The notes beneath the pieces are model-generated. The model had not been told where the DNA came from, searched no databases, and worked only from the letters and a program-made list of their open reading frames with translations. From Heterotrichella gracilis (Eukaryota; Sar; Xanthophyceae; Tribonematales; Xanthonemataceae), in contig JAULBX010000003.1 in assembly GCA_032358255.1 (NCBI GenBank), forward strand, positions 62,001-126,000: 64,000 nt of DNA, given 5' to 3'. Positions 1 to 61,080 of this stretch are shown here, in pieces. Every line of letters begins with the position of its first letter. Positions within the stretch are counted from its first letter, which is position 1. A program made the position numbers and the translations under genes.

Positions 1-760
1 CCCCAGGCGCACCTCCTGGCAGTGGCAGAGGGCCAGTACACCCCGGAGGACCTGCCCCAGTCCTACCGCAGCGTGGCGCGCAAGGTGTGGCAGGAAACAT
101 CCACCCCTGCATCGGGCCAGCCCTGGCTGGTGCGCTGTGTGAGCGCTGCACTGACCAGGATAGGCGTGGAGCACGTGTGCGGGGCGCACACCGATGACAA
201 CTTGCTGGTGCTGGATATAGTGCTGTCGCGCAAGGACAAGGTGGGTGGGTTTTATCCTTTGGTGGAAACAGGGATATGTGTAGGGTAATGTACTGCTGCA
301 AAATCCTGTTTTAGGGTTACCAGGGAAGGATTGGGGGGTGGAGCGTGTGTGCTAGATGTAGCGCTGTCTCACGAGGGCAAGCTGGGAGGTGTGTTGCTGG
401 TTTAGGGTCCCCATCGTCACCCCAGACCCCAAACCCCTAGGTTCCTGAAAAGGTCAGTCCCCAACCCAGCCCGTCCATTCCCCACCGGTTGGCATCCAAA
501 TCACCCGCCAGCCCCCACCCACCCGCCCACCCCCCAACCCCGTACAGGTCGCCCTCCAGATCATCCGCCAGTTCCACACGGTGCGCAACCACCCCACCCG
601 CCTCATGGCGCGCACCGTGTACCGCGAGCGTCTGCTGGTGGCGCAGGGCTGGCGCCTGGTCACCATCAGCCACCGCCAGTGGAGGGCGGTGCGGGACCAG
701 GGCTTTGAGGCCGAGGAGGACCTACTGGTGCAGCTGCTGCGCACGGTCATGGACGGGTGA
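1..760 (+). CDS. RAP-domain protein, C-terminal part only
   Basis: This is the 3' end of a gene that begins outside the window. One exon runs to 240, the intron is 241-547, and the last exon is 548-760 with a TGA stop. The exons join in phase 0. The final ~70 residues have the shape of a RAP domain, including a LVAQGWRLVTISHRQW segment near the end. RAP domains are found in organellar RNA-binding proteins (OPR and FASTK-type), so a role in chloroplast or mitochondrial RNA metabolism is likely from family knowledge. The left exon edge is unclear: a CAG at 4-6 could be an acceptor, or the exon may extend beyond the window. The helical-repeat part usual in OPR proteins would lie upstream and is not visible. 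Degenerate copies of both exon ends lie in the intron and the 3' flank (see findings). Confidence 0.7.
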
Positions 761-2721
761 GAAACCCTAAGGAAGGGTTCCTTTGTGGTTGAAAGCCCCA
801 CGCAAGGGTTTCTCCTTTCCTACATCAGGGCCTGAGAGGAGCCGTACGCACTAGTCTTCAGGGCGGTGCAGGCCAGGCGTTGAAGCGGAGCAGCTGTTGT
901 GGACGGTTGTGGACGGGTGAAGAGAAACCCTAAGCAAGTGTTTGTCTTTCTTGGGCGAACCCCACACAGGGGTTTGTTGGTCGTACTGACCAGGCTTTGG
1001 ATTGGGAAGGCCTGGTTGTGCCTCTGTGAAAGGGAATATTGACAAGAACTCCTTTAGCTCGAAAGCCTATGTAGGGGATGGGTACCCTATGCCAGGGTTG
1101 TCGTGGTGCTGGTGTTGAGGGCGGCCATGAATTGAGGAGGAATACCCATTGCAAGGGGTTGTTATTTGGGTTCTACCCTAGGTAGGGAAGGGTATTGGGA
1201 GGAGGGCCTGCTGGATGAAACCCTGTAGAGCCTCAGGGGTGGAGACATGGGGAGGTCAGAATGTTTTTTATGGGTTGGGGCAATGGGCCAGGGGGTGATG
1301 CTGTGTGGGAAATGGTGGAGAGTGGGACTGGGGAAGGGGGATGCAGCAAGCCATGGCATATGCCCAGCTGGGGAGACGTGGAGTGCAAAGTACAGTAGTC
1401 GGTGGCCTCAACTTGAGGCTTGAGTGCTCAATGCGTTTGCGTTGTTGCAGCCAGCGTTTGTTTTCTGGAGAGGTTTGGTGTTGATCTTTAAGGTTTTGAA
1501 CCCTGCTATTGCGCTATTAAGGGGTTTAGTGGGTATAAGGCAGCACAGCGCATTTATCAGTGTGGGAATCATACAAGGCGGACTGAATTGTGTGGCTACA
1601 GTCGTGGCATCTGTTGGAATTTAAGTTGCCAATCATATGCGGCATGGGTTGACCTTGCCAAAAAAGACATGGGGTAAATTATCCTCGCAATGGGTTTGGG
1701 ATTGGCGGGTGTCCTATTACCCTAAGGGTTGGCGTATCCCAGGCAGCCAGGTAATACGATAGCATATGTGTATATATGTGTGTGGTGGTATGTATGTGTG
1801 TATTTTGCCTGGCTGTCACCTGTGAGCGTCTCCTTCCTACTTTCTTTCTTCTGTGGGTCTCATCTTCCGAAATTCGTTTTGCTGTGCAGCTTGGGGGTGG
1901 CATCCATGTGACACTCTTCTCTAGTGGCAGCAGAGAGCGAAAGCACTTCAGTACTGGTACTCCTCCTCCATTGTACAAGCCTTGGACCCCGAGTGGCGGG
2001 CAGCGCACCAGCGCACTCAGTATCGCTCGGGACCAGGTACCTTGGTGGGGTGCACCATGCGCGCCGCAGGCCGGGTAGCGGCTCCCGGCCACTCCAACCC
2101 AATGGCGCGCAGCATGCCGACCAATAAAGCTGCTCGGTCGCACAGACAACTTGTGACCTGCCAGGTGGGGCACGCTTTTGTGTCGTTGTCGTACCACAAT
2201 GCGTATGCATGCATATTGCTGATGCATGCAAGCATAGTCACACTGCAGAGTGAAGGTTGAGAGAGAGACCTATAATGGCACTCGCGCACCGCAAGCCTTT
2301 GTATTCACTCTATGGAACTAGCAAGGACTCCTCTGTGCCATCCCCTTGAGTGGTGTCACTCCTGCATGCGTGCATGTGGGGCGATAGACAGCAGCAGCAA
2401 AAGTGGACACCGCCGAACCCACTACGTTTGCAAGCCACCCGTATCGCTAAGCCGTATATATAGCAGCTAAAACCCTCACTGCTATCCAAAATCTACCAAA
2501 CAGCAAGCATGTGACTGCAATGGGCATGCCATGCACGATGGCCTTGTGTAGACATAGTGCCTGCCCACCCACCCTCACCCGCCACACCACACCAACAACC
2601 ACGCGCATCCTAGGCGCAAAACTGGTGAGCATGGCCCAGCTGCGGGGTGGACTACCTTGTACTTGTGGCAGCTTAACCTAAACCTAAACCCCAACCCTAA
2701 ACCCTACACATCCCTGCGCAG
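761..2721. other. Intergenic: RAP gene 3' flank and upstream region of the pfkB gene
   Basis: No convincing coding sequence is visible. Positions 891-975 echo the last exon of the RAP gene. The stretch 1680-2600 probably holds the promoter, the 5' UTR and perhaps a first exon of the pfkB gene, because the kinase needs a 5' exon ending in phase 0 before 2722. One open frame at 1982-2163 ends at a CAG|GTGGGG that could be a donor, but I cannot confirm it. A CCCTAAA-type tract lies at 2674-2708. Confidence 0.4.
2674..2708. repeat. Interstitial plant-type telomere motif tract
   Basis: Imperfect tandem AACCTAAACC / CCCTAAA units lie immediately upstream of the first recognised pfkB exon. The unit matches the plant and green-algal telomere repeat. 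It is too short and imperfect to be a chromosome end, so it is an interstitial copy. Confidence 0.7.
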
Positions 2722-5170
2722 GCGCAACCTCAGGGGGTGAAAGTAGTGGGCATGGGCAGCGCTGGGGTTGACTACCTGGCGGCTGTGGCTGCATTCCCTG
2801 AGCCGGACCAGAAGCTGCGCACGGAAACCCTAGAGGTCCAGGTGGGGGAACCCTAGCCTAGGATTGGATAGCACCTCCCCAGGGGTGTGAGCAGGTGGCG
2901 TGGTGCACTTGTGTCACTTGACAGCACTGTACACATGCTTGTTGACCACACTGGCAATGCACATATGCGCGTTGGTCCTGATTTCCACCTTGGCCACAAC
3001 GGGCACGCCGCATTACTGTCACTGGCAACCCCCGCCTCACTTCCCACCCGACCCCCCACCTCACCCTCCACCTGAACCCTCACCCCCCACCATAGGGCGG
3101 AGGCAACTGCGCCAATGCCCTCACAGCAGCTGCCCGCCTGGGTCTCTCCCCCTGGATCATATCAAAGATAGGGGGTGACGGGCTAGGGGAGGGAATAATA
3201 AGGGAGCTTGAAGGGGAGGGAATCGACACCCGCCACGTGCTGCGGGCTCAGGGGTACTCCTCCCCTTTCACCTACATCATTGTGGACAAAGCTGGTAGGT
3301 AATAAAGTTTAGGGGTGCTCAACTAGTTCAACTAGATTATTGCAACTCGCTTGGCGCATGCGTTGTATGACAAGGGCACCAGGTAGGACCAAGGGTTCAT
3401 ACAGCTAGATAACCCCTTGATTTTGTACTTGAAGGTTTCACTCATACCCCGCAGGCGACACCCGCACCTGCATCCACACCCCAGGCGCCCCTTTCGCCCC
3501 CCAAGAAATCACATCTGAGCTCCTGGAATGCGCCCTTGATGGGGCACATCTGGTGTATTTCGATGGCAGGCTGACAGAGGCGGCACTGCTGGTGGCCAGG
3601 GCTGCGCGTGCCAAGGGTATTAGGGTTTTGGTGGAGGCCGAGAGGCTGCGGCCGGGGCTGGAAGATCTGCTTCGGGAAGCGGATTTTGTGGTCACAGCAG
3701 CAAAGTTTCCCATGGTGGGTGCAGGGATGTCAAGGAGGATTTTAGTATATCACATGCGATGTAATAAAATTATCATGGGAATGCGGTTATTAATGACCAA
3801 TTTCGTTGTGTTTGGTGGACGATGGCATTTTACCACGTTGACAAAGCACTCAACCACAGATTCCTTTGGGCCAATCACCTTCACAAAGGACCCCATAGTT
3901 GTTTAATGCACCCAATTTTCAATCCTAAAGCAAGTGCCAACTCCAAACCCTATCCCACCATTAATGCCAAATCCCCTTGCCCTCAGGCCTGGACGGGTCA
4001 GGAAGACATCGGCAATGCCCTAGTGGCAACCCTAGCCCGCCTACCCCACGCCAAGTGGATCATCACCACGAGGGGCAAGCAGGGGTGCGTGTCACTCGAA
4101 AGGAGCGAGGCGGCGGAGGAGGATTCGCCTCTCGGGAGCCTCATCGAGAAGCTGACGATGGCTCTCGAGGAGAAGGTGAAGGGCTCAGAGGCTGTGCATG
4201 GCGCGTGGGCAAATGGGGGGGCGCTGGATGTCAAGTAGGTGCTGGGTGGTGGAGGGTGAGGTGGCTGGGTAGGGTTCAGGGGGGTTTATGGGGTAGTTGG
4301 GGTTGTTTATGGGGTGTGGGATAGTGATTGAGATTGTGTGCAGGGTGAGGGTGTGTGCGTACAGCATACACACTACATGCCATGTTGCTTTGCCGCAACG
4401 CCAACATTATTGTCCCTGCCACCACCGGTAATTGCACCAGCCACCGTTTCACCCCCCACCCCCTTCAACCTGGCAGGCAAGGCCAGGTGTGGACCACCAA
4501 GCGCACCTACCGCCTGACCCTAGCAAAGGGTAACCCCACATGGCATGCGGAGGCGGCGGTAAGGGCGCAGGCGGCAGCACAGGCAGAAGCAAGCGCCAAT
4601 GCAGCCTCGGGGGATGCCGCTCGCTACGAGAGTCAAGCCGCTCAGTCCTGGTTTGCAGACAAGCCAGAGGTGGTTGCGAGGGTTGCGGTCGCGACGCCTG
4701 GCTTGCTACCACAGGTGCGTGCGGCTGGGAGAACCCTAAACCTCTGCACCATCAAGCCCTGTAGGTCTGTGTGTCATCCTGTGGCGACGCATGCTGGACT
4801 GCCTCAGTTGTGTGCAATTGGGTTAACCTAAGCCTAAACCTTGCAATGCTAATTTTGACATTTGTGGCGGTTGCGACACCTGGAATCCCTTTCCCCAGGC
4901 ATCTGTGGTGTGGATCCCCATTCAGTCCCCCATGTGTGATATGATTCCTAGTATTTTCAACTCCCTTTTGGTGCTGCGCAGGGGGCAGTAATGGACACAA
5001 CTGGGGCAGGGGACGCCTTTATCGGGTCGGTGCTGTACGGGGTGTGCTCTGGGAAAACCCTAGAGGAAACCCTCCGCCTGGCGTCGGTGGTGGCGGCGGC
5101 CAAGTGCACCGCCATGGGTGCCAGGCCAGGGATTCCTCACAGGGATGCCATCAATCCCCAACTATTATGA
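2722..5170 (+). CDS. pfkB/ribokinase-family sugar kinase
   Basis: Exons are 2722-2841, 3096-3294, 3455-3714, 3987-4234, 4477-4714 and 4982-5170, and every join keeps the frame. This gives 417 residues plus an unresolved N-terminus. Both family signatures are present: GGGNCANALTAAARLG at the start of the second exon, and DTTGAGDAFIGSVLYG in the last exon, with the catalytic Asp and anion-hole glycines. SPFTYIIVDKAG, RTCIHTPGAPF and VYFDGRLTEAA match the plant pfkB-like subfamily of Arabidopsis At5g43910 type as I recall it, whose substrate is not settled. It should phosphorylate a sugar or nucleoside hydroxyl with ATP. The fifth exon has an Ala-rich stretch that looks like an algal insertion. 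Exon echoes occur at 2618-2668 and 4863-4898. The real start codon lies before 2722 and I could not fix it. Confidence 0.85.
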
Positions 5171-9473: not shown

Positions 9474-12416
<2,943 letters not shown>

Positions 12417-15059: not shown

Positions 15060-15990
15060 GCAGCAATTCCTTTCCCCTCAGTTATTGACAGTATCCAATA
15101 CTTGCACAGCAGATGATCATGGGTTCTTCGCAGCATATCGAATGCGCATATTATATTGACACACAGGCTCTGAGTGTGTGATCCCAGCCTGGTATGTTGT
15201 TGCAATTAAGCAATGATAATGTTGCTTCATAATATGGCACAAGCCTTTGGAATGAGTTGGAAAAGTGTGTCATAAAGAATGGCAATCAGTGAACTTAATT
15301 GTCTTTTATGAATCCTGGTCAGCAAATACTGTGCAACATGGGCATTATTGTTACAAAGTGCACATCCATTAGACCTCAGCTTACAATGTTGTGAAGCCAT
15401 TACAATATTACCAGCACCCATGGCATGCTGCCAACTGTAACATATATCAAGGTCTTTTTGGAATCCAAAGTCTGAGTCAAGTGACCACACACTATGCATC
15501 ATGATTTGGCCCAGGCTTGCGACAAAGCACAGCGCGTGCTGCAGACGTTCAACCGGTAACTCATGCTACCATGTCATGATGTTTTTTCTCTTTTGAATCC
15601 TTGCATGGTTGCCGTCCTGCCAGTGGCCCACTGGCATTGAAAGAAACATTGAAACCTTCTCAGGATAGTCCTGCCACTTGTGGGCGTTTTCTTTTCTTTC
15701 TTTGGACTACTAGTAGGGCGCCCACGCCTAGACTTTTGAGGGTGACCTCAGGTGCCGGGCAGGGTCACCCTCACAACATTGAACAGGCAGCTGGCCACTC
15801 TGCGCATGGCTCAGGCTTAAGTACACCGTGACGGCAATTTTGATTGCCAACTTGGCAATCAGGTCTGGCATGCCATCAGTAGGGTCATCAGCTGAGTCAC
15901 TACGGTAGGACTGCGCATATGCCATATAGTAGTACGCATATGCGCAGTAAATGAGTAAATGATCCTGCCATGAAAATACATGTGCCTGCA
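15060..15990. repeat. Non-coding right part of tandem duplication unit, copy A
   Basis: No gene is seen. Short blocks here have counterparts after the second copy: the AATATGGCACAAGCC stretch near 15231-15246 matches about 17311-17325, and the CAATCAGGTCTGGCATGCCATC stretch near 15855-15890 matches about 17725-17765. The region therefore belongs to the duplicated unit and diverges more than the exons do. A CTTTTCTTTCTTT tract lies at 15689-15704. Confidence 0.5.
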
Positions 15991-26800: not shown

Positions 26801-27622
26801 CACAGAGCCTGCTGGCCAAAGTGGGTCACAAGTACTAGCAGTTTGATACGAGTTTTCTAATGTGGGGAGGTCCCAAGCCTGCGCCACCCTTAGCGCAACA
26901 AAATGCCACACAATTTGTGGAATTATTCCACACATTTCCTCAACAAATGCTATGCGCATATACGGTTGAGGCAAGCACACCACGCAAGCACAGCCTCCAA
27001 AAGGTTGCACCAAAATTTGTCACCATGCACAGTGTACAATCACCTGTCGTTGATCATCATTTGTTACCCATGATATCTAACTCCTGGGATTTAGTTGCAA
27101 CCTGCCGCCATGTGCACCCCCCTTTTAGGTGACAACCTGGCTGGCTGCACCTCACCGTGCAGGATCTGTACTCCCATGGACCGCATACACATGATAGGCC
27201 ACTCTAGGAGCCTGTACCTTACAGGCCATGTGCTGTCAAACTCCAGCTTATGGGGATCTCTTTTGCACACAGTTTTTGTAACGTATGCACCATCCACGAT
27301 CGTGTTGAAACCCACCGCCATGTGCGCCCTCCTCACAGGTGACAAGCCCGGCTGGCTGCGCCTGGCGCTGCAGTACCTGCGCCGCACCACCCTGGACCCC
27401 ATGCAGATGATAGGCCAGAACGTGGGGGTGCTGGGCTTCAACCTCATCTACATGTTTGACAAGGCGCCCCTCATGGCTGCGCTGCTGGACGAGCTGCTTG
27501 CGCTGGGCCTGCCAGCACCCATGGTGGGCGCCACCTACGCGTTTGACCAGGCGCCTGAGGCCATACGGCGGCTGCAGTCAGGGGAGACGGTGGGGAAGGT
27601 GGTGCTCCTGGTGGGGCAGTAG
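23875..27622 (+). CDS. Zinc-less MDR quinone oxidoreductase, VAT1-like, organelle-targeted
   Basis: Eight exons close in frame: 23875-24123, 24404-24487, 24699-24884, 25348-25563, 25916-26021, 26443-26499, 26729-26794 and 27339-27622, giving 415 residues. The first ~55 residues (MLLSSRQHTIVHGANLTAAL onward) are Ser/Ala/Arg-rich and look like a chloroplast or mitochondrial transit peptide. The GroES-like part has VGLNFADVFTCLGLY and FSGIVEEISG, and the Rossmann part has the NADPH-binding VQSAAGGCGHLAL (about residue 216). FDIILDAVAGDFFQPGYDHL and GRYVVYGAADW fit the VAT-1/quinone oxidoreductase subfamily, which lacks the catalytic Zn ligands. The expected reaction is NADPH-dependent reduction of quinones or reactive enones. 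Exon 7 is short (66 bases), with acceptor TGTAG at 26724-26728. A decayed copy of the last exon's left edge lies in intron 7. Confidence 0.9.
26250..26350 (+). repeat. Degenerate short tandem repeat in an intron
   Basis: Units of about 13-16 bases built on AATGATCACACCA / AATAATCACACCA recur about six times with variation in intron 5 of the quinone oxidoreductase gene. It is a simple minisatellite with no sign of function. Confidence 0.6.
27095..27225 (+). repeat. Decayed copy of the oxidoreductase last-exon left edge
   Basis: Aligned with 27312-27440, this stretch shares the sequence before the exon (CCGCCATGTGC...CCC), the acceptor (TTTTAG here, CACAG in the real exon), GTGACAA...CTGGCTGC, and GATGATAGGCCA as GATAGGCCACT. 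Many substitutions have accumulated and the reading (GDNLAGCTSPCRIC) no longer resembles the real GDKPGWLRLALQY. It lies just upstream of the functional exon in intron 7. Confidence 0.75.
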
Positions 27623-29097
27623 CCTAATAGCGGGGAACGGCGGTTACCGTAGCAAATGCCCAACATTACCCAGTTTTGACGTTAAGCCGCAATCAATTGC
27701 TGCATTGACTTTACTGTCGTCTGTGGGCGTTTTGTTTCTTTCTTATTCAGGTGTCCCGGACAATGTGACAGTCAGGCTTCATCATATGGCACAAAGTTTC
27801 CATTCTTGCCTCCTAGTTGGCTTCAAATTGGATGGCAGTTAAAGTCATTTCTGCAGAATCTGACCAGAATCTGCAGAGGCAAATTTGAAGACCTTTTTCT
27901 GCCTCTCAGAGACACCGTACTCATCAAAATTGTGACAGTTGATACAACAGTGGCAGCGACTGTCGCTATTACAAGGCTTAGCTGCTGCAGCTGCGCGTGT
28001 TGTACGCGCATAATATTAAATTATTGTCATAACTTTGCCCCCCCACCCACCGTCCCTGCGTGTCAGCGCCCAGCATACCCTGAGGTAAACAAAAAGACCG
28101 GCTGCAATTGAATTTCCAAGAAAACAGCGTCAAACATTGCTGAATCTCGGCTGCAATCCAAAGGAGGATCATTCGGTACCGGTAGTGTCCAAATAAACTG
28201 TCAGTGAGCCTTAAAAATCCTGGGCCAACCGTCACCCATGCCATGTGTTAATTCATAATAGGATCTAGCCCTTCTTCATACAAGAAATAAATGTTGGTCT
28301 AGGCCTAGGATCCTATTTGTCAAGTCTCAGGTGGCAAGCTTGCAGTAAAGCTGTACTGCTGCAAGTGGCTAAATTATGGCATTGAGTCATGTAAATGCTG
28401 CTCAGATGTTGGCATATGCACATTGCTACAGTTCATTTAGACATTCAATGCTATTGATCAGTCTTAATAGGCACGGGAACACTTCAAGGGAAACTGCATC
28501 ACTCCTCTCATGTGTCCTCCAGGCGGAAATAGCACCTGTGCTTCACACACTGACAGGTGCCGACCACCATGGCACAGGTGCCAACCACCATGGCGCAATT
28601 TTGTGCATACCCTCCAGCGCGTGTGGCAACGCAATGCTCACCCATGTTGTCCACTGCTGCTGCTCATCCACGTCACCCACGACAACCGCTGGCCAAGCAA
28701 TGCACCAGAGCGCCCCAGGCCTCACAAGCGCATGTCTGCATGCTGGCACCAAGACTCCTAGCCAGCGCAGCCACGCCATTTGCCCCGTGCATATATTTGC
28801 CCCAGCTACAGTACAAACTCCTAACCACAATGCTACCACCAGGATGCTGCCAGCGCTGCCCCCTTGTTGTCCACCAGGCACCAGCACCAGCTTGCTGACA
28901 CGCCACCAGGCTCAAACGGCAACCCACCCTTCAGCCCTGGCCCTTGCTGGCAGCAGGCATCAGCCTCCAAGCCGCAACCTGGACCCTCATCACATCGCCC
29001 CGGCAGGCTCACAGCAAGTCGTCGTCAAGCGACGCCCCCTTGCTGCCACCTGGCACCAGGCCCTGGGCCACAAGCATTCTGCATTGCCCCGGCAGGC
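27623..29097. other. Convergent intergenic region with copies of the EXS gene 3' end
   Basis: Lies between the 3' ends of the oxidoreductase (+) and EXS gene (-). The long open frame 28376-29296 on the plus strand is antisense to the EXS exon and to its repeats and is not called as a gene. Positions 28860-29096 contain tandem, decayed copies of the EXS stop region. A tail-like TGTGGGCGTTTTGTTTCTTT lies at 27723-27742. Confidence 0.5.
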
Positions 29098-31888
29098 TCA
29101 CAGCAGGTCGTCATCCAGCGCCGCCGCCTTGTCCACCGCAGGTACCAGCTTTCCAAGCTCCGGCCGCTGGTGCTGCAGCTTGCGCAGCTCCACCTCTATG
29201 CGCACAAAGGCCCACTGGAACCGCCTGAATGCCTCCAGCATGGCCACGGCAAACACCGCCACCTGGTGGCGCCGCAGGTGGGGCGACAGCTTGTAGGTCC
29301 ATGCCAGGCGCAGGCACAGGTTGGATGCCATGAGGTAGTAGTAGAAGCTGCGCTGGTAGAGCAGCTCGGAGCTGAGCAGGGGCTTGGGCGGGGAGAAAGC
29401 GGACTCGCCTGCAGGAGAGGATTCAGGGTTTAGGGTGCGGATGGGTGCAGGTGGGCCGCGTGAGCGCAAAAGGTGTCACCACTTGAGGAGCATGCAAGGA
29501 AATGGGGCGCCATGCAAGCACACGTTGGGTGGCCAGGTCCTGCCGGTTTGTGGTTGGTGTGCATGCGTGAGGTACAGCTACCTGTCGGAGCATATTGAAA
29601 TAAAAATTGAAACAAGATATGTATTGATAAAAAGATAAAACGCAACCTGGCAGCAATCCCACAGCAGCAAGCAGCAGGTATGCATCATTGCATGAATGCA
29701 CTCACGTGGAGCGGTGAAGAATTGGATCTCCCAATCGCGCTCCACATCCCAAAAGTAGCTGTAGCATGAGTTGAGGACCGCAGCAGCGATCCACATCGGC
29801 TTGTACGTGCTGTTCCATGCGTCCTTGTCCACTTGGTACTTGACAGCTGACAGGATGATGACGGGGAAGGCAGTGGAGTACTTGATGGCGTTGTACACCT
29901 GGAGGGTGGGATCAATAGAGGTTCAAACAGCGCCAGGAAAGAGCTACTTGGCGCCGCATGTGCAAGACTGACTGCTAATGTGGCTGTGTTGCTGGAATAC
30001 ATGTAAGTACCTAATTCCAAACTAACGTCTGGAGCAGTGGATGGTGCCAGTTGTACAGTGTCGCAGTGACGCTATGGTCCCATGTGGGCATGGCTTGATG
30101 GGTTGTGCACTGGATGAAGAAACCAATGATGGTGTGAGGTGTGATAATGCATTGATTGCAGCAATTCCCAATGCTGTGTGAGCAGGCATGCAACATGGTG
30201 TGACAGCCTTGCAGCATGACCCCACCCCATGGGCGGCACAACACCCACCACAGCTCGCCCCAGGAATGCACATGAGACACACAAACCTGCAGTGGATGCT
30301 GATTGATGGGGCACATTATGTAACAGTGCCGCAATAAATGCTGTTCGTCGACTAGCTCACCTGTGACTTGGCCCCTGTGTCCAGATACACTCGGATGCAT
30401 TGGCAGAAGCGCCACAAGTAGGGCAGCGCCAGCCCCAAGGGGATCAGGAACGACGCGCTGGTGCACACCTGGGAGGCAGCGGGCAACGGCACAGCGATTA
30501 GGCAGCAGACACTAGATGGCATGCACCCGGAAGGGAGCACCTGCATGACCGCATGGGCATGTGGATATGCATGCATGCCTTTACACGCTGTACTGCACGT
30601 GCACAATCGCTGGTACGTGCGTGCTGGTAGGCTCCCAGGTGGAGCATTACCATGTCCGCCGGTTCCCTCCCTGGCCCAATTTTGGCATTTGGCATGCATG
30701 GATTCAACGCCGTACCCAACAACCAATGTGTATGCAGAGTACCCCTTGTACCCCAGTTGTGATGGCCCACCCCCAGGATGGGTAATTCCCTACCTTTTCA
30801 GCCGGTTCCATCACCGGCCCGGTCATGAGGTGGCACACCGCCCGCTCCGAATCTGACAGCGCTTTGGCCAGCGAGGTGAGGATATCAGCCAGCAGGAAGT
30901 CTGCCCAGGATACCCCCCTAAAGGGCGTGATCACCCGCCACAAGGTTGTGGAGAAGAACAGGCGCGTGTCCCGGTAGGCCACGTTGGCTGGCACCAGAAA
31001 CAGCAGCGCCACAAACACGTACAGTATGGGCGGCTGGTACGCAGCGTAGTCGGTCTGGCCTGTTGCGCAGCTGTAGGTGAACACCGCGCAGCTGCTGGTG
31101 AAGACAGTGGTGATCAGCCCACACACCTGCAGCACAGGCGGATGGGTGACCACCGTAGTCTAGGCAGATGGCCTGATGATATGAACCCATACCCAGGCAT
31201 GGGTGCCAAGGTTCTGTGCTGCGAAGATGATGAAAGCAAGGGCCAATGACCCTGGATATATGGCCGTGTCTGGTCTTGGTACTAGCTGTGAACACTTGCC
31301 AAGCCGCCATGGTACCATGCTCAGCAACTTGTCAACCCAGGGGATCTTATGCTCACCTGGAAGATCTGCCGGCTGGCCAGCAAGTACTTTTGGTCCTCTG
31401 CGCTGAAGCAGACGTCGTACCGGATGTAGCGCTGCTCAAAGAAGCGCACCACCAGCGCCCACAGCCACAGCATGAACAGCATGGGCACCAGCGGCTGGTA
31501 GTACACATACAGAAGGTCCACGTGGTTGGTCTCCAGCGACGTCACGCTGCTCGCTATGAACACCACGCACACAAGGTTCCATAGGAACGTCACTGCCCCC
31601 TGCACCGCAACCAGGCGCCTGTCAGAGGCTGTGGACTGGATTGGGCATGGGAGTGCCCTGTGCAGCTTTACTAGGAGGCCTACCTGGTACTTGGACTGTT
31701 TGAGGTGCCGCGTGACACCAGACGCGTGCGCTTTCTTTTCAGTGGGAGTTGCTGGCTCTCCATCGCTGCACAAAGTTGAACAAAGGGTGGAAACCATAAC
31801 CACCCAGAGGTGTGGCAGTACTGGAAAGCAGTCACCAAGGCACTCACCCACTGTCAACAGCAGCATAACCAGCCTTGTTGCGCTCCAT
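29098..31888 (-). CDS. EXS-domain membrane protein (XPR1/ERD1-like)
   Basis: Seven exons on the minus strand: 31848-31888 (or further upstream), 31684-31765, 31357-31635, 30794-31126, 30361-30468, 29706-29898 and 29098-29408. All joins keep frame, giving 448 residues from the ATG at 31886-31888. The body is an EXS domain: several hydrophobic helices (for example LYVFVALLFLVPANVAY and PLGLALPYLWRFCQCIRVYLD), FRGVSWADFLLADILTSLA, SYFWDVERDWEIQFF, and the C-terminal FRRFQWAFVRIEVELRKLQ, a signature of this family. EXS proteins include the phosphate exporter XPR1 and yeast Erd1 (Golgi phosphate and glycosyltransferase recycling). No SPX domain is seen upstream, so it resembles the Erd1-type short form. 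The start is uncertain: exon 31848-31925 is open upstream of the ATG, and 32008-32060 is a possible extra exon in matching phase. Confidence 0.85.
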
Positions 31889-31925
31889 GAGGATGCTGCC
31901 AAGCGGTGACTCTGGTGGGTCAAAA

Positions 31926-46090: not shown

Positions 46091-48224
46091 CTAAAGTACG
46101 TACTTTATCTCATGGGTCACCAAATACTCATCGGCCGCAGATATGGCGCCGCAGCTCACCCACATTGCGGGCACCAATGTTCGCAGGGCTGCGTTTGCCA
46201 CTGCATGCATTCAAACACGTAAATGCTCACTCTGAAAAAGTATACATAAGTTTAACTCAAGTTGTAAAATAATTGGCCCACGAGAGCAGCGCACACAGGC
46301 ATGCGATGCCACTTGCATATAAATGGCTTTAGATTTTCTCACATGCAACACAGCACGTTGACACGTAGCACAAAATGTTGTGTCAAGCGATGCAAAAGCA
46401 TACTTTTAATATTGGCAAACCGCCAGGCATGCTTGTCATTTAATGTCAGGGTTTACTCACCATGGGGAGGCGGATGGGCATAGACAGTACCGGTGGTGTC
46501 GTTGACAATGCCATAGAAGTTCAGAAGATACGCCAAGCGGTTGTAGTGTGCTCGTCTTGATTCCAACATCAGCGTGAAAGCTTCCACCGTTGCTGGAAAC
46601 ATGTCTGCACCGCAGAAACAGTTTAGCCAAAGAAAAAACAAATAGTACACAGGTGCCACCATTTGCCTTGAGATGATTGCTGTGTGTTCATTGCTGCGGT
46701 ACATTGCTCCTCAGATGAACACGCAGCATTGCAGATATGAGCTGCCAGGAGTACCACAACCTACATTGTGCTGGTGAAGCGTTGGCATTGTTGACCACCA
46801 CCTCTAGCGGCCCCACCATGTTGTCCATTGCCAGTCCATTCCGAATGATCACCAGCGTTTTTGACATGCGATCAATGTCAGCCTGTAGGGGCTGCATGGC
46901 CTGCGTCAGCGCCGGCACCGTCAACACTGCTTGCAAAGCTTGTGCAATGACTGCAGCCATCTGGGGCTGTACCAGCATCTGTGTCAGCGCCTGAGCGAAT
47001 GCTGGCTGTGCTGCCGGCTGCTGCAGAGTTGTCAGAATGGCACTGACCAGTGCTGGTTGGGATGCGGGATGCTGCAAGGCTTGCTGCAGCATCTGTGGCG
47101 TCATTGGTGGGCCTGCGATGAGTAGATCAAACAAACGCATTATTTATGGCAGGCAAAGCACATGATTTTGATTGGCCACCATTGGAGTGTGTCATAATGC
47201 GTCATAGTGCTTATAAATACTGCTGAAGATCACTGACCACGCTGCAACCCACGCACCGGACCAGGCCACAAGTGTATGGAGGGGGCATACTATGGTCGTA
47301 CTGCAGAGTATGCCCCCTCCATATGTGGCTGGTGTAGGGGGGGCATACTATGCTTGTACTGCCAGTGCAGCTGTAAAGCAGTGCAGCTGAGGATCACAGA
47401 CTTGCGACCAACATACCAAAGCAAGCTATCTTCAATTGATCGACATACTCGCCCAGGTTGGCCAAATACTGGGCTCGTGTGTCAGCACCAGGAGGATCAT
47501 TGGGATCCGGACCTACAAAAGGTACGCCAGCCTGGTGAACTACGGGTTCATCAGAGCGAGGAGAAGAAGTGGTTCCAAGACATCTGTTGCAACATGATCC
47601 ATGAGTGGACAATAAGGGAATGCAGGGAACATTGTTCCCTCCGCTAATTGCAAGCCAGTGCATGTTACCTGCTTACTTACATGCGTTCAGCGATGCAGGC
47701 AGATCAGCAATCAGTCCTACATGCCTTGCGCCAAACAGCCCTGTCCTGGCACTGCTTATACTAACTCTACACTGGTGGTGCCAATGCAGCTATATCACGC
47801 AACGCCAGGTCAATCCATGTGGCTCTGGGCCTCAGCACGGCACACTGCCTTATCGTCCTACCAAACATTGTCCTACAGCACTTGGGTATTCTATTGTCTT
47901 ACATGTGCCCAACCTGCCCTAGCCATCACAGCCAAATTTCCCTGAACCTAGTAGAAGCAGCCTTGCAATTGCACTTCTCCGAAAAGCGAGCACAAGTTGT
48001 ACTGGAATATGGTAAACCCTTGACACCCCACACATAGCCCTCAAATGGCTATTCTGATACATGTTACCTGCATCTGCCAATAACACAGCGGCCTTGGCCT
48101 CAAATGCCCTCCACTTGCCAAATTGGCTCCGATTAATGGGTCCATTAGCTGGCGGAATAGGGGGATGGCGGTGGTTGTGGTCGATGAGGAGTTGCAGCTC
48201 TTGTGGTGGCTGCTGCATTGCCAT
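46091..48224 (-). CDS. Member B of the unrecognised three-gene family
   Basis: I do not recognise the function. The model is 48068-48224, 47417-47512, 46723-47112, 46461-46604 and tentatively 46091-46200, giving about 298 residues. It is related to members A and C by its start (MAMQQPPQELQLLIDHNHRH against MAIPHPPEQLDRL), by exon order, by phase 1 at every intron, and by exon 4 (YLLNFYGIVNDTTGTVYAHP against LLLQFYGVKNGKGKVYAYP). Exon 2 is GPDPNDPPGADTRAQYLANL onward. Exon 3 is much longer than in C and is rich in Gln, Ala, Pro and Leu (QMLQQALQHPASQPALVSAI onward), with near-repeats of LQQPAAQPAFAQAL. There is no signal peptide or membrane helix. The donor of exon 3 (C|GTGTTC) and exon 5 are weak calls. 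Low-complexity helices may serve in protein interaction, but that is speculation. Confidence 0.5.
47275..47323. repeat. 17-bp perfect inverted repeat in an intron of family member B
   Basis: The arm TATGGAGGGGGCATACT (47275-47291) and its exact reverse complement at 47307-47323 flank a 15-base spacer. A third, direct copy of the core GGGGGGCATACTATG follows at about 47339-47353. The structure would fold into a strong hairpin in RNA or single-stranded DNA, and may be the remnant of a small inverted-repeat element. Confidence 0.85.
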
Positions 48225-50635: not shown

Positions 50636-51769
50636 TCAACAATGCGCGATAAGCCTGCGCAGTGCCGTGTACTTCTCATCCACGACAGCCTGCAATCGGC
50701 CTGCAAATGATGCCAGAAATAAAATATGATTAAGCTCCCATGGTGTACGAGTTGCATAGCATGGCCTCAGAGGTGAGGTGCAAAACAGGGTGCAACTGTG
50801 TGAAGCAATCCAACAGCAGGCAAACGAGGAGAAGACTCCTTGCCCGTACCTGGCCTCGGTCGGGTAGGCGGGTAGGCATACACTTTCCCCTTCCCGTTCT
50901 TCACGCCGTAAAACTGGAGCAGCAGTGATAGCTTGTCATTGTTGGCAGCTGTTCCGTTGGCCATACACTCCAGCTCGCCCACGCTCCTAGGGAAGCACGC
51001 TGCGCCAACAAGGGTTGGGGCTGTGAGAAGGCAGGGTTGTATTACACGCCAGACAGCCACGCACGCATGGAGGCCACAACTCACCTGGAGGTGGTCGGTC
51101 GGCAAGGTCATGGTCAAGGAGTGGTTCCAGCCAACCCCCGCCCCTGTCTACCATGCGGCGGTTGTTTGAGGCTATCAAGAAGCTGGTAATGGAGCGAACT
51201 TGGGTCCTGATTGGCTTCACCGCCTCCTCCAAGAGCTTGCGGTGCTCCTCAAGGAGATGCTCTGGTGGGTTTTCCTCCTGCTCCTTCAATACGTCCAGAA
51301 TTGCTTGCATGACCAGTGATCCTGCAGTGGTTCAGCAATTAACAGCCTTAGAAGCTGCACCACTACAGCTGCAATGGCGCAGGTAAAGATTGAAACTTTA
51401 GCCACAAATAACCCCTGGACCCTGGATCCATACCTCCGTACATGGAAGCAAGGTGCTGGACGTATTGGGTGATTTGCGATACCCACTCGCCCACCGCATG
51501 GTCAGTCACTGCAGTAGACACCACAGAGTGAGCAAAGGAACGAGGTGGGGAGTGGTTTCAGCAACGCTCAACTGGGTCAAACTTGGAAGGTGGGTCAACG
51601 TGTCACCTGATGTCCCCAATGCGTCAAGGGCTGTGGCCAGATACGTATTCCAGCTCTGCACCTCCGTTTCTGTTGGCTGTGCGTCGATGTATATTGCCGG
51701 CGGCAAAGGGTACACGCAACCCATAGACACTAGACGGTCGAGTTGCTCAGGAGGGTGTGGGATAGCCAT
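50636..51769 (-). CDS. Member C of the unrecognised three-gene family, intact
   Basis: Five exons close in frame: 51607-51769, 51434-51508, 51085-51321, 50850-51020 and 50636-50700, giving 236 residues. All four introns are phase 1 after a G. The protein starts MAIPHPPEQLDRLVSMGCVY, continues with an acidic-helical stretch (VTDHAVGEWVSQITQYVQHL), then VLKEQEENPPEHLLEEHRKL, FLIASNNRRMVDRGGGWLEP and LSLLLQFYGVKNGKGKVYAY, and ends QAVVDEKYTALRRLIAHC. It has no signal peptide, membrane helix or Cys cluster and is probably soluble. I do not recognise the family. Member A (36989-38109) is its recent sister within the segmental duplication, and member B is an older relative. Conserved sequence continues beyond the stop (50180-50600), which may be 3' UTR or further alternative exons. 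Confidence 0.7.
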
Positions 51770-51945
51770 GGTGAGGGGTCAACGGGACCGTTCAACGTGA
51801 ACAACCTTGTGAAGGAAATAGGAAGTTGCAACTGTTTGAGTCAGGATATCTCGGTTCTAAATACGTATTTACGCTGCAGCACTTGTGAACACGGAGTCCC
51901 GGAACCCATAGGGTGGATGCATGCATGCAGTTCGGTGGGACCAAC

Positions 51946-55700: not shown

Positions 55701-56875
55701 TAGCTGGCATGATATGTATTACTTTCATTGAATATGTCATGTGAAGGACGTGCTGCAGGGTGCACAGGAAGCCATCACGCTGGCGGGATGCGTGTTGTCT
55801 TGCAAGTACCTGAATGGTATTGGACTTGCATTTGCAAACATCCAAATCTGTCACTCCGGTATCTCCGGCTGTCACTAATTATGCCAGGAGCTGTGATAGC
55901 AGTTGGGTCACAACCTTTTCTTAAAGCATTCTAGCCGATTTTGTAGTCGGATGCGCAGCCACTGCACAAACCAACCTTACCCCTGGTGCCATTGCCGTGA
56001 AGTTCTTGTCCATGCACCCCCCCACCCCCTCAATTCCCCTCCCCTGCAGCAAAATCGCCTCCACCCCCTTCCCCTTCACCTGGTGCCAGGCCAACCTCAT
56101 GCTGCTCACAGTGCTGTCCCTGTGCACACCCGTCATATGCACAATGTACACGGCGCATGTGTGGGCGGCGGCGGGCATCGCTTTCCTGGTGGTGTTCTCC
56201 TATTGGGCGCTGAATGGGGCGGCGGTGGAGCTGGAGGATCCCTATGGGCTGGACCCTAACGACCTACCCCTGTCACGGTTTGCGGTAAGGGCATGCCTAT
56301 TGATGCAGATGTCGGGATTTGGAATGATGCAGAAATTGTCACAGTGGTATTGGCATTGCATATTGGGTGGTGTTCTCTGTGGGCACTCAAGGGTGGACGA
56401 TGCAGCTGGAGGATTCCTATACAGGGCCAGGACCCTAAACTCTGCCTGTTAGGCAGTATGCTGTAAAGGAACAGAGATCATTAAACGCAATCAAAATGCA
56501 GATTTTTGACTTCACGCTGCGCCGCAAAAGTAATGGTTAATTATATCCAGTAGTTTCCAGATTATGCACATGCTTTGCTCCCAGCCAGTAGGCGGCTTTA
56601 CAGCTTACCCTGGCCATACCCTAGTCGGCATTCTCCAGTTACCGCCACCCAGCTCTGCCGGGACACAGGCCTTGTACCATTTCTGCATATGTAAAATCCC
56701 ATATCCCTGCTGGAAGGCATGCATTTTTTACCCTTTGTTCACCTGGCTGCAGTTCGACTTCAACCAGTCCATCCTGGTGGCGGCGTGGCAGCAGCGGCCT
56801 CTGTGGTTCAACCAGTACCAGCCCAACATCATGCCAGCCTATGCGCATGTGGACGAGCAAGGGGTGCACCACTGA
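52789..56875 (+). CDS. Bestrophin-like anion channel (bestrophin/UPF0187 family)
   Basis: Nine exons close in frame: 52789-52965, 53621-53658, 53832-53916, 54150-54356, 54773-54938, 55238-55320, 55594-55673, 56050-56284 and 56753-56875, giving 397 residues. The N-terminus MIHYDSKKYFGLHLLFQLYG is followed by the first membrane helix (FPTAFVFGAASALLTVVVWY). The second helix and conserved loop read IFAFIVGFAIVFRISSSYAR then FNEARS, the family hallmark, with the Y-x-R-x-x-E-x-R spacing. Later helices are in exon 8 (LMLLTVLSLCTPVICTMYTA and AGIAFLVVFSYWAL), then ELEDPYGLDPNDLPLSRF, which matches the acidic Ca-clasp-like region ending in a D-x-N-D-L-P type motif, and FNQSI. In algae and plants such channels carry chloride or bicarbonate across thylakoid or other membranes; localisation here is not evident. 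The upstream ATG at 52603 would add an untypical leader, so I prefer 52789. Confidence 0.92.
53111..53147. repeat. AT-rich palindrome cluster in intron
   Basis: TAAAAAGTACTTTTTA is a perfect 16-base palindrome, followed at once by a second AAAGTACTTT palindrome. It shares GTAAAAAGTACTTT with the bestrophin first exon (52805-52818). Confidence 0.6.
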
Positions 56876-56940
56876 CCAGGGTCCAATCGACACTTCCAGT
56901 GGTTGGACAGTACCAGAGGTTGCTGAGCAGAGAGCCGGCA

Positions 56941-57200
56941 AGGACCAGCTGGGACTTGAGAATGATCAGCAGGGAGCGAGAATGATCAGCTGACACCTGA
57001 ATGTGATCAGTAGAGAGCTAGAAATGATCAGCAGCGATCTGAAGTGATCAGCAGGGAGCGAGAAAGGACCAGCTGAGACCTGGAAGTGATTAACAGAGAG
57101 CTAGAAATGATCAGCAGCGATCTGAAGGTGAACAGCAGGGGTTTGGGGATGATCAGCTCAGTCCTGGACAAGATCAGCGGAGACCTGGACGTGATCAGCA
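56941..57200 (+). repeat. Degenerate ~21-bp minisatellite
   Basis: About twelve imperfect units of the type GATCAGCAGNGAxCTGGAxGT follow directly after the bestrophin stop codon, each starting with GATCAGC or a variant. The period is a multiple of three, so one frame stays open as heptad-like peptide repeats, but there is no start or splice context to suggest translation. Confidence 0.8.
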
Positions 57201-57973
57201 GTGTGCCACCACTGCCACACACACAGGACGCGACCATGCTGAGGCATCAGCTGGGGTTTAGGTCATTTGTCATGACAGGCGGGGGAGCGAGGCTGCGGTG
57301 GTTCATCCCGACCATGCATACCATGTGGCCGAGCAGCAGCAGCGTAGGTGTGCTTGTGGGTGACCAAGAGGTTGAAATTGACTGTGATCAGCAGAGTGAA
57401 TTATTATGTGACCGTCACATGTATGTGAGACCATGGTGGGTAGGCTGGGTGTTGCCTGGGGGCACGCGGGGTGCACCATGGGGTGCGCCTTGGTCATGAA
57501 TTCTATGCAATCAAGTTGGAGCCCTGCTTGCAAAGTATATATCGCCACAGCTGGCGAGAGAGGACATGTTCAGCCAGCAGCAGGGCTGCAAGTGACGTTG
57601 AAATATTTATTACAACCATTTTGGATGACTGGTTATTCAGAATGATTGGTATTGGAATCTGAGGCAGTGATCACTTCCTTGATCGTAATCCAAAATGATC
57701 AGGGCCATTATCTTCACCTGCCTGTGGGTGGCGCGCAGCCAGGAGGATAACGCTGTTGTCATACAACGCTACAAGTTGTAAAGTTGTAAGCGATGGTGAG
57801 GCGTACCTAGGTTTGCTTTCGACCTTTATAGCTGCCAACCCGGTCTCCGCTACTCTGCACTTCGTTGCAGTACTCGGCTTGTTTAGCCTGACACACACGA
57901 ACTTCTACACTAACACACCCAACTAACAGCGACAGCTCTTTGCACCAGTGGCTTTTCGTAGAGTGGGGACGCA
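57201..57973. other. Intergenic between minisatellite and adenylate kinase gene
   Basis: Presumed adenylate kinase promoter and 5' UTR; the open frame at 57086-57499 begins in the minisatellite and is not called. No other feature is seen. Confidence 0.35.
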
Positions 57974-60900
57974 ATGCAGACCACGCGTTCTACCTCCAGC
58001 ACGGCGCTGCCACTGTCTGGCAGGGCACACGTGTCCAGCAGCAATGCCTCTCACACAGCACCACAGACCCACTGCAAGGCTTACAGTAAGTCCCCACACC
58101 CAGCACTACCCAAAAGCTCCCTAGCCTCGAGGTTTTGAACCTTGAACTCTGGCGCAGGGCGCATGGAGAAGCCGTTTATGGGCAGCAAAGTCCACGCACT
58201 CAAGGCATCCAGGCAGCAACCAAGCAGGGCTAGCGCAGTAAGTTGCAGCTTGTTCAGTGTCAAGAGCGGCCCTGAAGCTGCCTGTTCACAAAGCAATTCA
58301 AGTAATCAAGCTGTTCAGTTCATTTAACCTCACACTCTGGTTGTGTGTGGCTGCAGCTGTCAGTGGTGGCTGGTGACCAGCTGCGTGTGATGATCGCTGG
58401 GGCACCTGCTGCGGGCAAGGGCACACAGTGCGCCAAGATCGTGCAGAAGGTAAGCAGCCATCCCTTAGAAGCATTTTGACTGCTCCTAGTGATTCCAGCT
58501 GCTCCTAGGTGTAGCAGCGCAGTGACATTGAGGGTATAGTAACTTGCAGCAAGAGACACCCCACCCACCCCACCACCATCACCGCATGGCAGTGTGGTGA
58601 CGTTTTGCTAGGACAGCCACGCTGGGCGATACGGATGGTGACCACGTGAGCCCCTGGGACTGAGTCAAAACCCTTAGGTGGGGTGTTACCGCATGGACCC
58701 ACTGACCCATGGGTGGCGGCTGTCAGCCTGGCTGTGCAAGGGGGGGGAGGGGGCGCGCAAACCCACGTGCTTTAGGGTTTGGAGCTCTGCTTTATCCCAC
58801 TCATGGCAGAATTTCCTAGAAAGCGTCACTAGACTTGTGCGCCTGGTGGTTCGATAACTTGTCAGCAACATCCAGACACCATACAAACACCCCCACCCCC
58901 TCAACCCCCACCCGCTCACCGCCGCCCCACCCCCACCCCCGCAGTTTGGCCTGGTCCACATCTCGGTGGGCGACCTGCTGCGCGAGCAGGTGGCGCAGGG
59001 CACCGACGCAGGCAAGCGCGCCAAGGCCTTCATGGATTCGGGCGACCTGGTGCCAAACGAGGTGGTGGTGGATATGGTCAAGGCCAGGCTGGCACAGCCC
59101 GACTGCGCCACCGCTGGCTGGCTGCTGGATGGGTACCCGCGCAGCGAGGAGCAGGCAGAAGCTATTGAGAAGGAGCACATCCGGCCAGACATATTCATCC
59201 TGATAGACGTAGGTGGTTGAAATGGTGGTGGTGGTGGGTGGTGGTGGGGTGTGGGTATGGTGCATGGGCTGGTGCTGCTGTGGCATGCATGGGGGGTGGC
59301 TGCTGGATGGGTACCCGCGCAGCGAGGAGCAGGCGAAAGCTATTGAGAAGGAGCACATCCGGCCAGACATCTTCATCCTGATCGATGTAGGTGGCCCACG
59401 GGGGGGAGGAGGGATGGTGGGGGTGTGGGGTGAGGGGAGGTGGAAGGGGGGATGGCATGTTCAGGTGCACGGAGTGGTGCTGCTGTGGCATGAACTTGGG
59501 CTGCATGGAGGGGGCTGGTGGTTGAATACCCTTGCATGAGGAGCAGATGGAAGCTGTTGATAAGGGACACACTACCCCGGACATCTTCAATATGATCGAC
59601 GTAGGTGGCGTGTAGGGGGCCATGGGGTTAGCGCACGCGGGGGGAAGAGCGAGAGGACAGGGGGTGGTGCTGGCACCGCATGCATGCGACGGCAGGAAGG
59701 GGGCATGTGCGCCATGGGGGGCAATGTATGCGTGGGATTGCGGGTGGGCAAGCCTTGCATGGGCATGAGTGCATGGGACAGGGCTGGCGTTGCTGTTTCC
59801 ACCCACACGCACACCCACCCACCCTTCAGGTGCCCGACGGCATGCTGTGGAAGGGCCCTCAACCTAATTACTCCATCCATAGGTGCCCGAAGTCATCCAG
59901 CTGGAGCGGGTGGCAAGCCACAAACCCTACACACTCAACCCTAAAATATGCCCTACCCCCTACAATGCCAACACCCCCTACAGGTGCCCGGCTGCATCAA
60001 GCTGAGCGGGTGGCGGGCCACAAGCCCTATAAACCCTAATTTGGACTCTAAACCCCCCATACGCACAGGTGCCGGACGACATGCTGGTGGAGCGGGTGGT
60101 GGGGCGGCGCATGGACCCCGTCACCGGCGAAATCTACCACCTCAAGTTCAAGCCACCACCAGAGGAGGTTGTGCCCCGCCTGCAGCAGCGCAGCGACGAC
60201 ACCGAGGAGAAGGTCCGCAACAGGCTGGCCACGCACCACAAGAACGTGGACTCGGTGGTGGGCTTCTACAAGGACGTGCTGGTGGAGGTGCGGATTCAGG
60301 GTTTTGGGGTTTAGGGTTTTAGGGGTTTGGGGTTTGGTACCCGGCTGAAAACGACGCAGAGGAGAGGGGTTGCAACAGGTTGGCAAAGCACCAAAGCGTC
60401 GCCTTTGTGGTGGGCCTCTACAAGGATGTGCTGGTGGAGGTGCGGTTTAGGGTTTTAGGGTTTGGTTTTGGAGGGCTAGGGTTCAGCACCCCCATCGATT
60501 GTGGATTTGGGTGTGAGCATCTGGTGCATGCGCGGTGGATAAGCAGTACATAGGCAATGCCGGGGGAGAACACCATTTGTGGGGTTTTACGCTGTGAGAG
60601 CAGCTGCTAACCATGGGTTTGCACGGGGCTGTGGATGGGGTGTGGGTTGCTGCAAGTTCCGCCGACATGGATCGATGTACCAGGGGGAGCGGCGCCTGGC
60701 AGCCAGGTGCCCCATCCCTAAAACCCTAGAGCTTAATCCCTAAAGCTATGTGCAGCTGGCCCCTGCGCCTGTGTCACAACAGGTGGCGCACCCCACCAGG
60801 CTGATACACCCACCAAACTGCCTGCCCCAAAGAACAGCGGCACCCCCACACCCTAAAAACCCTAACGCCATGTGCAGCTGATGCTCCCACCATGCTGACA

Positions 60901-61080
60901 CACACTCCTAAATCAACCGCCTGCCTTGCAGGTCAAGGGCACCCCACACCCTTAAACCCTAATCAACCCTGCCTGCCCCCGCAGGTCAAGGGCGACCAGT
61001 CCATGGAGGCTGTGTTTGCTGAGATAGAGAACGCAATCGACAGGGTGCTGCCCACCACCGCTGCTGCAGCCACCGCCTGA
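57974..61080 (+). CDS. Adenylate kinase, probably chloroplast-targeted
   Basis: Six exons close in frame: 57974-58085, 58158-58237, 58357-58449, 58945-59208, 60069-60287 and 60985-61080, giving 287 residues. The first ~62 residues are Ser/Thr/Ala-rich with few acids (MQTTRSTSSTALPLSGRAHV onward), a likely plastid transit peptide. The kinase shows the P-loop IAGAPAAGKGTQC (about 78-90), the AMP-site segment ISVGDLLREQV, LLDGYPRSEEQAEA (about 155), and a LID region GRRMDPVTGEIYH (about 193-205) without a zinc Cys cluster. RLQQRSDDTEEKVRNRL carries the catalytic arginines. It catalyses ATP + AMP to 2 ADP. Intron 4 (59209-60068) and the introns on both sides of exon 5 and before exon 6 contain at least seven copies of exon edges, making this the clearest locus for that pattern. 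Confidence 0.93.
59292..60035 (+). repeat. Array of exon-edge copies in adenylate kinase intron 4
   Basis: Positions 59292-59398 repeat the last ~95 bases of exon 4 with its GTAGGTGG donor almost perfectly. Positions 59530-59610 are a second, decayed copy of the same edge. Positions 59824-59860, 59875-59935 and 59978-60035 are three decayed copies of the left edge of exon 5, each with an AG acceptor and GTGCCCG. CCCTAAA motifs occur between and after them. Confidence 0.85.
60297..60486 (+). repeat. Telomere-type motifs flanking a copy of the exon 5 right edge
   Basis: A TTTAGGG-type tract (60297-60337) follows the exon 5 donor. It is followed by a decayed copy of the last ~95 bases of exon 5 (60350-60444, ending GGTGGAGGTGCGG), then another TTTAGGG tract (60446-60486). 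The same junction, GGAGGTGCGG followed by TTTAGGG-type sequence, thus occurs twice. Confidence 0.85.

Follow-up and report, generated by a model that had tools for sequence, protein, structure and literature searches.

Recurrent exon-edge copies in a 64-kb window of Heterotrichella gracilis: probable small tandem duplications associated with telomere-like motifs

Introduction

The window analysed here is a 64-kb stretch of intron-rich eukaryotic DNA from Heterotrichella gracilis (Xanthophyceae; assembly GCA_032358255.1, contig JAULBX010000003.1, positions 62,001 to 126,000 of the forward strand). Six of its genes, those for a RAP protein, a pfkB protein, a quinone oxidoreductase (QOR), an EXS protein, a bestrophin and an adenylate kinase (ADK), carry copies of one edge of an exon in the adjoining intron or 3' flank. 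How did such copies come to lie beside their source exons, why is it the edge that is copied, and what part do the telomere-like CCCTAAA/TTTAGGG motifs near them play? An initial annotation of this DNA had proposed local templated repair of breaks, perhaps with addition of telomere motifs. We conclude that the families are likely to be ordinary small tandem genomic duplications, filtered by splicing and selection. Coordinates below are positions in the window, and the extra copy in non-coding sequence is called a decoy.

Local copies beside source exons

The self-search used no gene models. A total of 4228 tiles of 90 nt, overlapping and not independent, were each compared with the next 500 nt. 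At a score of at least 44, 79 tiles matched in direct, 0 in inverted and 0 in reversed orientation, and distant segments gave a mean of 2.3. At a score of at least 38 the numbers were 114, 7 and 0, respectively, with 3.0 for distant segments. The seven inverted tiles represent three places, hairpins at 24.3 and 47.3 kb and a C-rich/G-rich match at 58.9/59.2 kb, and none of the three is an exon-edge copy.

The direct tiles fell into 22 local clusters, 15 of which merge into 11 exon-edge families, ten at splice junctions and one at a stop-codon end (EXS). ADK holds four families, RAP and pfkB two each, and QOR, EXS and bestrophin one each. All six loci named in the initial annotation are real. 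In every family the copies have the same orientation, are local and include both exon and intron sequence in the duplicated segment (for EXS, the stop codon and the sequence into the 3' flank). Fourteen splice-junction decoys show 73-94% identity over aligned bases, in keeping with the range from near-perfect to barely visible described earlier, and the splice dinucleotide (GT or AG) is intact in 10 of the 14, which bears out the remark that copies usually include the donor or acceptor. No cluster lies wholly inside an exon (0/22), and in none of the 11 families are both edges of one exon copied. The presence of exon-edge copies beside their source exons is confirmed.

Seven of the 22 clusters were set aside, outside the 11 families. 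The pair 9550/10026 is weak and distant (d = 476); it touches the kinase acceptor at 9562 and could be a further edge case. The others are a microsatellite at 26258, three short pairs outside the gene models (41458, 42432 and 47272) and two rows of one minisatellite at 56921. This minisatellite (56921-57201) has a period of about 21 nt (also 42 and 83) and starts soon after the bestrophin stop codon.

The families, with two weak cases from the junction search described below, are as follows.

208..395 (+): RAP donor 240; source 208-253 with exon tail and donor, decoy 349-395 in the following intron with its GT lost.
480..572 (+): RAP acceptor 548, weak (p = 0.0005 before multiple testing); acceptor and exon head 538-572, decoy 480-512 upstream in the same intron.
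683..994 (+): RAP donor 756; exon tail, donor and following sequence 683-829, decoy 860-994; AAACCCTAA occurs in both copies, at 762-770 and 925-933.
2571..2804 (+): pfkB acceptor 2722; acceptor and exon head 2694-2804, upstream decoy 2571-2684; telomere-like patches at 2677-2706 lie between source and decoy.
4688..4845 (+): pfkB donor 4714; exon tail and donor 4688-4748, decoy 4781-4845 with GT changed to TT; a patch occurs in both copies, at 4732-4742 and 4833-4840.
27094..27417 (+): QOR acceptor 27339; intron end, acceptor and head of the last exon 27304-27417, upstream decoy 27094-27201.
28941..29148 (-): EXS stop end, without a splice site; end of the last exon 29037-29148 with the stop at 29098, copy in the 3' flank 28941-29059.
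30647..30820 (-): EXS donor 30794, weak (p = 0.0002 before multiple testing); donor 30790-30820, intron decoy 30647-30677.
56174..56469 (+): bestrophin donor 56284; exon tail and donor 56174-56291, decoy 56352-56469.
59116..59628 (+): ADK donor 59208; exon tail, donor and intron start 59116-59244, tandem decoys 59294-59420 (90%) and 59513-59628 (79%), both with GTAGGT as in the source.
59813..60103 (+): ADK acceptor 60069; acceptor and exon head 60051-60103, decoys 59813-59851, 59873-59913 and 59970-60017 ahead of it, making an array of four acceptors including the real one.
60196..60491 (+): ADK donor 60287; exon tail, donor and intron start 60196-60342, the intron start holding a degenerate TTTAGGG array; decoy 60351-60491 past an 8-nt gap.
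60792..60997 (+): ADK acceptor 60985; acceptor 60958-60997, decoy 60907-60943; another repeat within the intron pairs 60792-60865 with 60886-60962.

The two ends of one ADK intron also match in complement. A TTTAGGG-type patch at 60311-60332 is complementary to a CCCTAAA-type patch at 60844-60865, and further pairs are 60311-60331 with 60942-60962 and 60445-60465 with 60846-60866. The complementarity is 81-86% over 21-22 nt, and these intron-end patches could pair in RNA.

Gene models

Twelve gene models with 59 introns, all stop-free, were built region by region from the DNA alone and corrected by eye. The RAP model is provisional at its 3' end, as are the first exons of some models. Ab initio gene finding was rejected: with loose penalties everything was fused into one or two genes, and with tight ones 114 mostly tiny genes resulted. 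A Pfam scan of eight proteins matched each to a fitting family: RAP (barely over the cut-off, 24.6 vs 24.2 bits), PfkB, protein kinase, OST48, zinc-binding dehydrogenase (the QOR), EXS, bestrophin and adenylate kinase. The four models outside the scan were named by eye as coiled-coil, cysteine-rich, molybdopterin-type and TspO-like proteins. The best solved-structure match of ADK is 1zak, the maize adenylate kinase; with the TTTAGGG type of the telomere-like motif, this gives the DNA a plant- or alga-like character. An ADK exon compared with genome contigs gave 26 loci with 41-57% identity in the best segment; all are in bacterial records and uninformative on introns. Neither this ADK exon nor the last exon of EXS found a relative in viral contigs.

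Enrichment at exon edges

Edges were compared with interiors in a junction search, in which 65-nt segments were aligned with the adjoining intron with telomere-like patches masked, p values being taken from shuffled introns and introns shorter than 90 nt omitted. Here as elsewhere, a single small data set was tested many times with families defined post hoc, so p values of 0.001-0.05 are suggestive only. A copy at p < 0.01 was found at 11 of 108 junctions, at 1 of 25 exon-interior controls and at 0 of 41 intron-interior controls (junctions versus both controls pooled, Fisher p = 0.032). The initial annotation had proposed a comparison of this kind for the whole genome; in this window, with small numbers, its claim survives. 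Bestrophin donor 56284 was missed by the junction query, and the sole positive exon-interior control lies in that exon; RAP donor 756 was outside the search, its intron being without a mapped end. RAP acceptor 548 and EXS donor 30794 were newly found, both weak, and a weak copy at EXS acceptor 29898 is probably due to chance.

The matches are concentrated in few genes: RAP (2/2), ADK (4/8), pfkB (2/12), EXS (2/8) and QOR (1/14), with none in the other seven genes including bestrophin (0/64, bestrophin 0/12). Half of the modelled genes (6/12) hold no copy at all in the 52 junctions tested.

Random placement was used to set an expectation. Segments of family sizes dropped into modelled genes are exon-only in 14-20%, non-coding in 33-40% and include one edge in 38-46% of cases. 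Two or more exon edges are held in 2.9-7.0% of placements, i.e., 0.3-0.8 expected among 11. The lack of whole-exon copies, which the initial annotation had used as an argument, therefore means little, and the argument fails. Exon-only events would damage the protein and two-edge events should be rare, so the survivors ought to be single-edge and intron-only events in about equal numbers. We observed 11 single-edge and 0 intron-only families, one intronic microsatellite being left out. In simulation with the same aligner, non-coding pairs were detected 77-79% as often as edge pairs, which makes it less likely that the edge excess is due to detection bias alone.

Introns with copies are longer (median 544 vs 236 nt, n = 7 and 52, p = 0.0006), partly because longer introns offer more room to find a copy. 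Of the 860 nt of the ADK intron, 371 or more (summed coordinates) can be aligned with one of the intron's edges. The proposal that the process drives intron growth is in this sense supported by the length difference, with the reservation that the search room differs as well.

Tandem duplication as the probable origin of the copies

The aligned copies reach 7-69 nt beyond the coding exon. Since they carry sequence past the splice site, they are genomic duplications that postdate the intron, and the same sequence rules out intron-creating filler and products of spliced RNA. The spliced ADK protein shows no gap against 1zak at the 59208|60069 junction, so the ADK copies are not part of the mature protein, and the model needs no new intron.

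Contiguity is directly visible in ADK. At donor 59208, a single alignment continues from unit to unit, head to tail; at donor 60287, the copies are separated by the 8-nt gap; and in the array before acceptor 60069, the intron pieces of two neighbouring units match too (p = 0.002). For EXS, contiguity depends on the alignment: the merged tile hits overlap, and the ungapped repeat 28993-29059/29082-29148 leaves 22 nt. The position of the junction in the copied stretch did not differ detectably from uniform (Kolmogorov-Smirnov p = 0.15, n = 10, exon share 0.64 on average; of the 14 rows, 4 were excluded because they were too weak or further copies of one family). The splice sites seem to have been carried along in the copies, not targeted.

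The copies have aged as a constrained exon and a free decoy would. Mismatches between exon and decoy by codon position were 33/264, 38/266 and 64/255, with 68/373 in the non-coding part (14 pairs, EXS included and RAP acceptor 548 excluded). Mismatch at position 3 is 25%, compared with 13-14% at positions 1 and 2 (p = 7.5e-5). This excess indicates that the exon is constrained, changing mainly at position 3, and that the decoy drifts everywhere.

The following course of events probably accounts for these patterns. A unit of about 50-215 bp would be duplicated in tandem, with one of its breakpoints in the exon and the second in the neighbouring intron (in the 3' flank for EXS). The splice site beside the exon body would still be used and the extra copy would fall in the intron, so that the intron grows and the gene still works; a duplication wholly inside the exon would alter the protein. 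The extra copy would then drift freely while selection holds the exon copy, and the exon part would stay recognisable. The likeliest origin is that staggered breaks were filled in and their ends joined, which is known to produce small tandem duplications; replication slippage would look identical at this age. Vaughn and Bennetzen in 2014 and Schiml in 2016 reportedly described small tandem duplications from staggered-break repair.

Several results weigh against this reading. A decayed tandem unit should leave residual similarity between the copies, and none was found overall in eight gaps between partly visible pairs (combined p = 0.42, a ninth pair being omitted for its short gap); the gap of RAP donor 240 alone gave p = 0.025. 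In-register extension, in nine comparisons on seven pairs, was significant for the ADK acceptor array only, and for QOR it gave p = 0.20, although similarity should still show there. Contiguity is thus seen for ADK only and for EXS just by merged hits; the other families would have been contiguous at their origin.

The distribution of the families adds to these objections. Under random placement, the probability that 11 of 11 families lie at edges is 0.0002-0.002 with equal detectability, 0.0007-0.006 at the simulated weight of 0.78 and 0.0015-0.010 at a weight of 0.67. Counting the microsatellite (at least 11 of 12) gives 0.006-0.034 at 0.78, and counting the six genes once each gives 0.024-0.066. 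For the whole window, weighted, 11 edge families versus five non-coding repeats give p = 0.002, and six genes versus five give 0.11. The copies are also spread unevenly over genes, unlike what a uniform duplication rate would produce. A modest edge excess over random placement remains, and it is not independent of the clustering in few genes.

Telomere-like patches as possible hotspots

The motif named in the initial annotation is abundant. CCCTAAA/TTTAGGG sites number 29 in the window, compared with 5.6 (standard deviation (SD) 2.4) in dinucleotide shuffles. The AAACCCT class has 126 8-mer hits, and the next of 20 heptamer-repeat classes of the same composition has 30; AAACCCT itself is the commonest of the seven rotations (51 sites). 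Patches of at least 8 nt number 49, compared with 9.8 (SD 3.1) in local shuffles; 3 lie in coding exons and 27 of the 49 in modelled introns. Their placement near the copies, asserted in the initial annotation, is borne out statistically: of the 46 non-coding patches, 20 are no more than 100 bp from a family, with 3.2 expected (copied patches counted). In the junction search, where patches were masked, 6 of 11 copied junctions have one in the 120 bp on their intron side, compared with 7 of 97 others (p = 0.0003). Within RAP, pfkB and ADK alone the same comparison gives 6/8 and 2/14 (p = 0.008).

These associations raise the possibility that telomere-like motifs by exon edges are duplication hotspots, which stall replication or load CST/polymerase alpha-primase on staggered breaks, the filled-in ends then being joined as a tandem duplication. 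In mouse and human cells, small tandem duplications arise by CST-guided fill-in (PMC8355091), and interstitial telomeric sequences are unstable and destabilise genomes (PMC6410037). In five families (RAP 756, pfkB 4714, ADK 60069, 60287 and 60985) a patch occurs at matching places in both copies, so in families having one the motif mostly predates the duplication.

Other observations count against a hotspot. The patches cluster in RAP-pfkB and ADK, as the copies do, and with six genes only a regional cause may be responsible. Three families (QOR, the EXS stop end and ADK donor 59208) contain no patch of at least 8 nt, and the bestrophin patch is coding sequence. The patches also follow the make-up of introns: the 17 C-type patches lie late and the 10 G-type patches early (p = 0.004, counting copied patches), and CTAA is most frequent 20-40 nt upstream of acceptors (8/1060 vs 1/980 in the next 20 nt). 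CTAA is a branch-point-like word, and the patches may be splicing signals. Over the 59 introns, the first and last thirds hold 178 and 55 GGG and 69 and 228 CCC, respectively.

The patches may promote breakage and fill-in or be ordinary intron furniture, and both could be true. We consider the hotspot explanation possible but doubtful; CST might favour such patches in this organism. That motifs by splice sites recruit the telomere fill-in machinery and so cause repeated edge duplication, decoy arrays and lineage-specific intron lengthening is a long shot.

Templated repair, retained function and artefact

Local templated repair, in which a copy of the exon edge is inserted and telomere motifs are added at the break, was the mechanism first proposed. 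The edge bias and the motif association would suit it, as would the fainter pairs without residual contiguity and the two families in which the patch is not at matching places of both copies (RAP 240 and pfkB 2722). Templated insertions should include inverted ones, and no inverted exon-edge copy was found; the copies are direct and local, the ADK families are contiguous arrays, and the motif is matched between copies in five families. A special templated repair with motif addition is improbable on this evidence. What stands of the earlier interpretation is the recurrence of the copies, the edge excess, the motif association and the greater length of introns with copies; its repair mechanism is not supported.

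A retained function of the decoys, whether as alternative exons or as splice sites in stepwise or nested splicing, is very improbable. Ten of the 14 have an intact GT or AG, and both decoys of ADK donor 59208 keep GTAGGT. However, splice dinucleotide bases are retained at 24/28, compared with 857/1124 in the flanks (p = 0.37), which gives no support for preferential retention of splice sites in the 14 splice-junction decoys. Among the 14 pairs used for the mismatch counts, 11 aligned decoys have indels in the exon-derived part, some perhaps being alignment artefacts, and the mismatch pattern fits drift. No sign of decoy use was found in the sequence, and the decoys are probably not used.

Chance or assembly artefact is hardly credible: the introns are of low complexity and there is a single assembly without reads, but 79 direct tiles stand against 0 inverted and 0 reversed at a score of at least 44, and the copies differ by 6-27%, unlike assembly duplicates.

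Other features of the window

At 13929-17155 the whole gene of the cysteine-rich protein is present as a tandem duplicate (spacing about 2065 nt, 89% identity), the second copy having been modelled by the gene finder as a fragment only. Two similar open reading frame fragments, at 37248-37622 and 50987-51310 (-), have a conserved stretch in common, and a cysteine/histidine-rich frame at 43537-43854 (+) resembles a retroelement end; judged by eye from such translations, mobile elements may be numerous in the 37-52 kb stretch. A perfect 28-nt palindrome lies outside the modelled genes at 39775-39802, and imperfect ones include 44169-44221 and 47275-47323. The commonest 7-mers in the window are the palindrome-like GCATGCA (95) and ATGCATG (81). 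Rfam gave no match in the window at the gathering threshold, and ARAGORN found no tRNA in it.

Relation to known systems and implications

Among the literature matches listed, recurrent exon-edge copies with telomere-like motifs are not described, and the nearest case is the potato RdRp gene (Ma, Lan and Niu 2016, PMC4974935). There a tandem duplication across an intron-exon boundary made a new, RNA-supported intron, and the same paper reports an 83-bp tandem duplication inside an intron. As in potato, the copies described here are probably direct tandem duplications of an intron end and exon head with the splice signals carried along. Unlike in potato, several junctions per gene are involved, and the extra copy decays in an intron that was already there, with no sign of a new one.

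Intron gain by tandem duplication of exon sequence is a related process. Novel introns in Drosophila have been attributed to tandem duplication (Lehmann 2010, PMC2891723), and in the Rogers 1989 model, as given in PMC4974935, an exonic AGGT is copied and an intron created; Hellsten 2011, described there too, also concerns intron gain by this kind of duplication. Within-gene tandem duplication interacts with splicing in these cases as in ours; unlike in the Rogers model, the intron pre-existed here and its edge was copied.

The copies are local, direct and short, like duplications formed at staggered breaks. Known cases are small tandem duplications that depend on CST-guided polymerase alpha-primase, which fills in telomere ends (mouse and human cells, PMC8355091), and tandem duplications from break repair (PMC5730883). 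Unlike in these two cell-line studies, where breaks were induced, the copies in the window are of mixed ages and most breakpoints are blurred. The motif itself is that of the plant telo boxes AAACCCTA, which concentrate in 5' untranslated regions (PMC3022908), whereas 27 of the 49 patches here lie in modelled introns.

In the literature cited, tandem duplication across a junction is discussed as a source of new introns. Eleven families in six genes of one 64-kb window suggest that it is also a common way for introns to become longer and accumulate decoy splice sites, with the exon preserving a record of the duplications that lengthened the intron. If the association with the motif proves to extend over the whole genome, it would connect gene structure with the fill-in of telomere-type ends and would offer a testable cause of differences in intron length between lineages.

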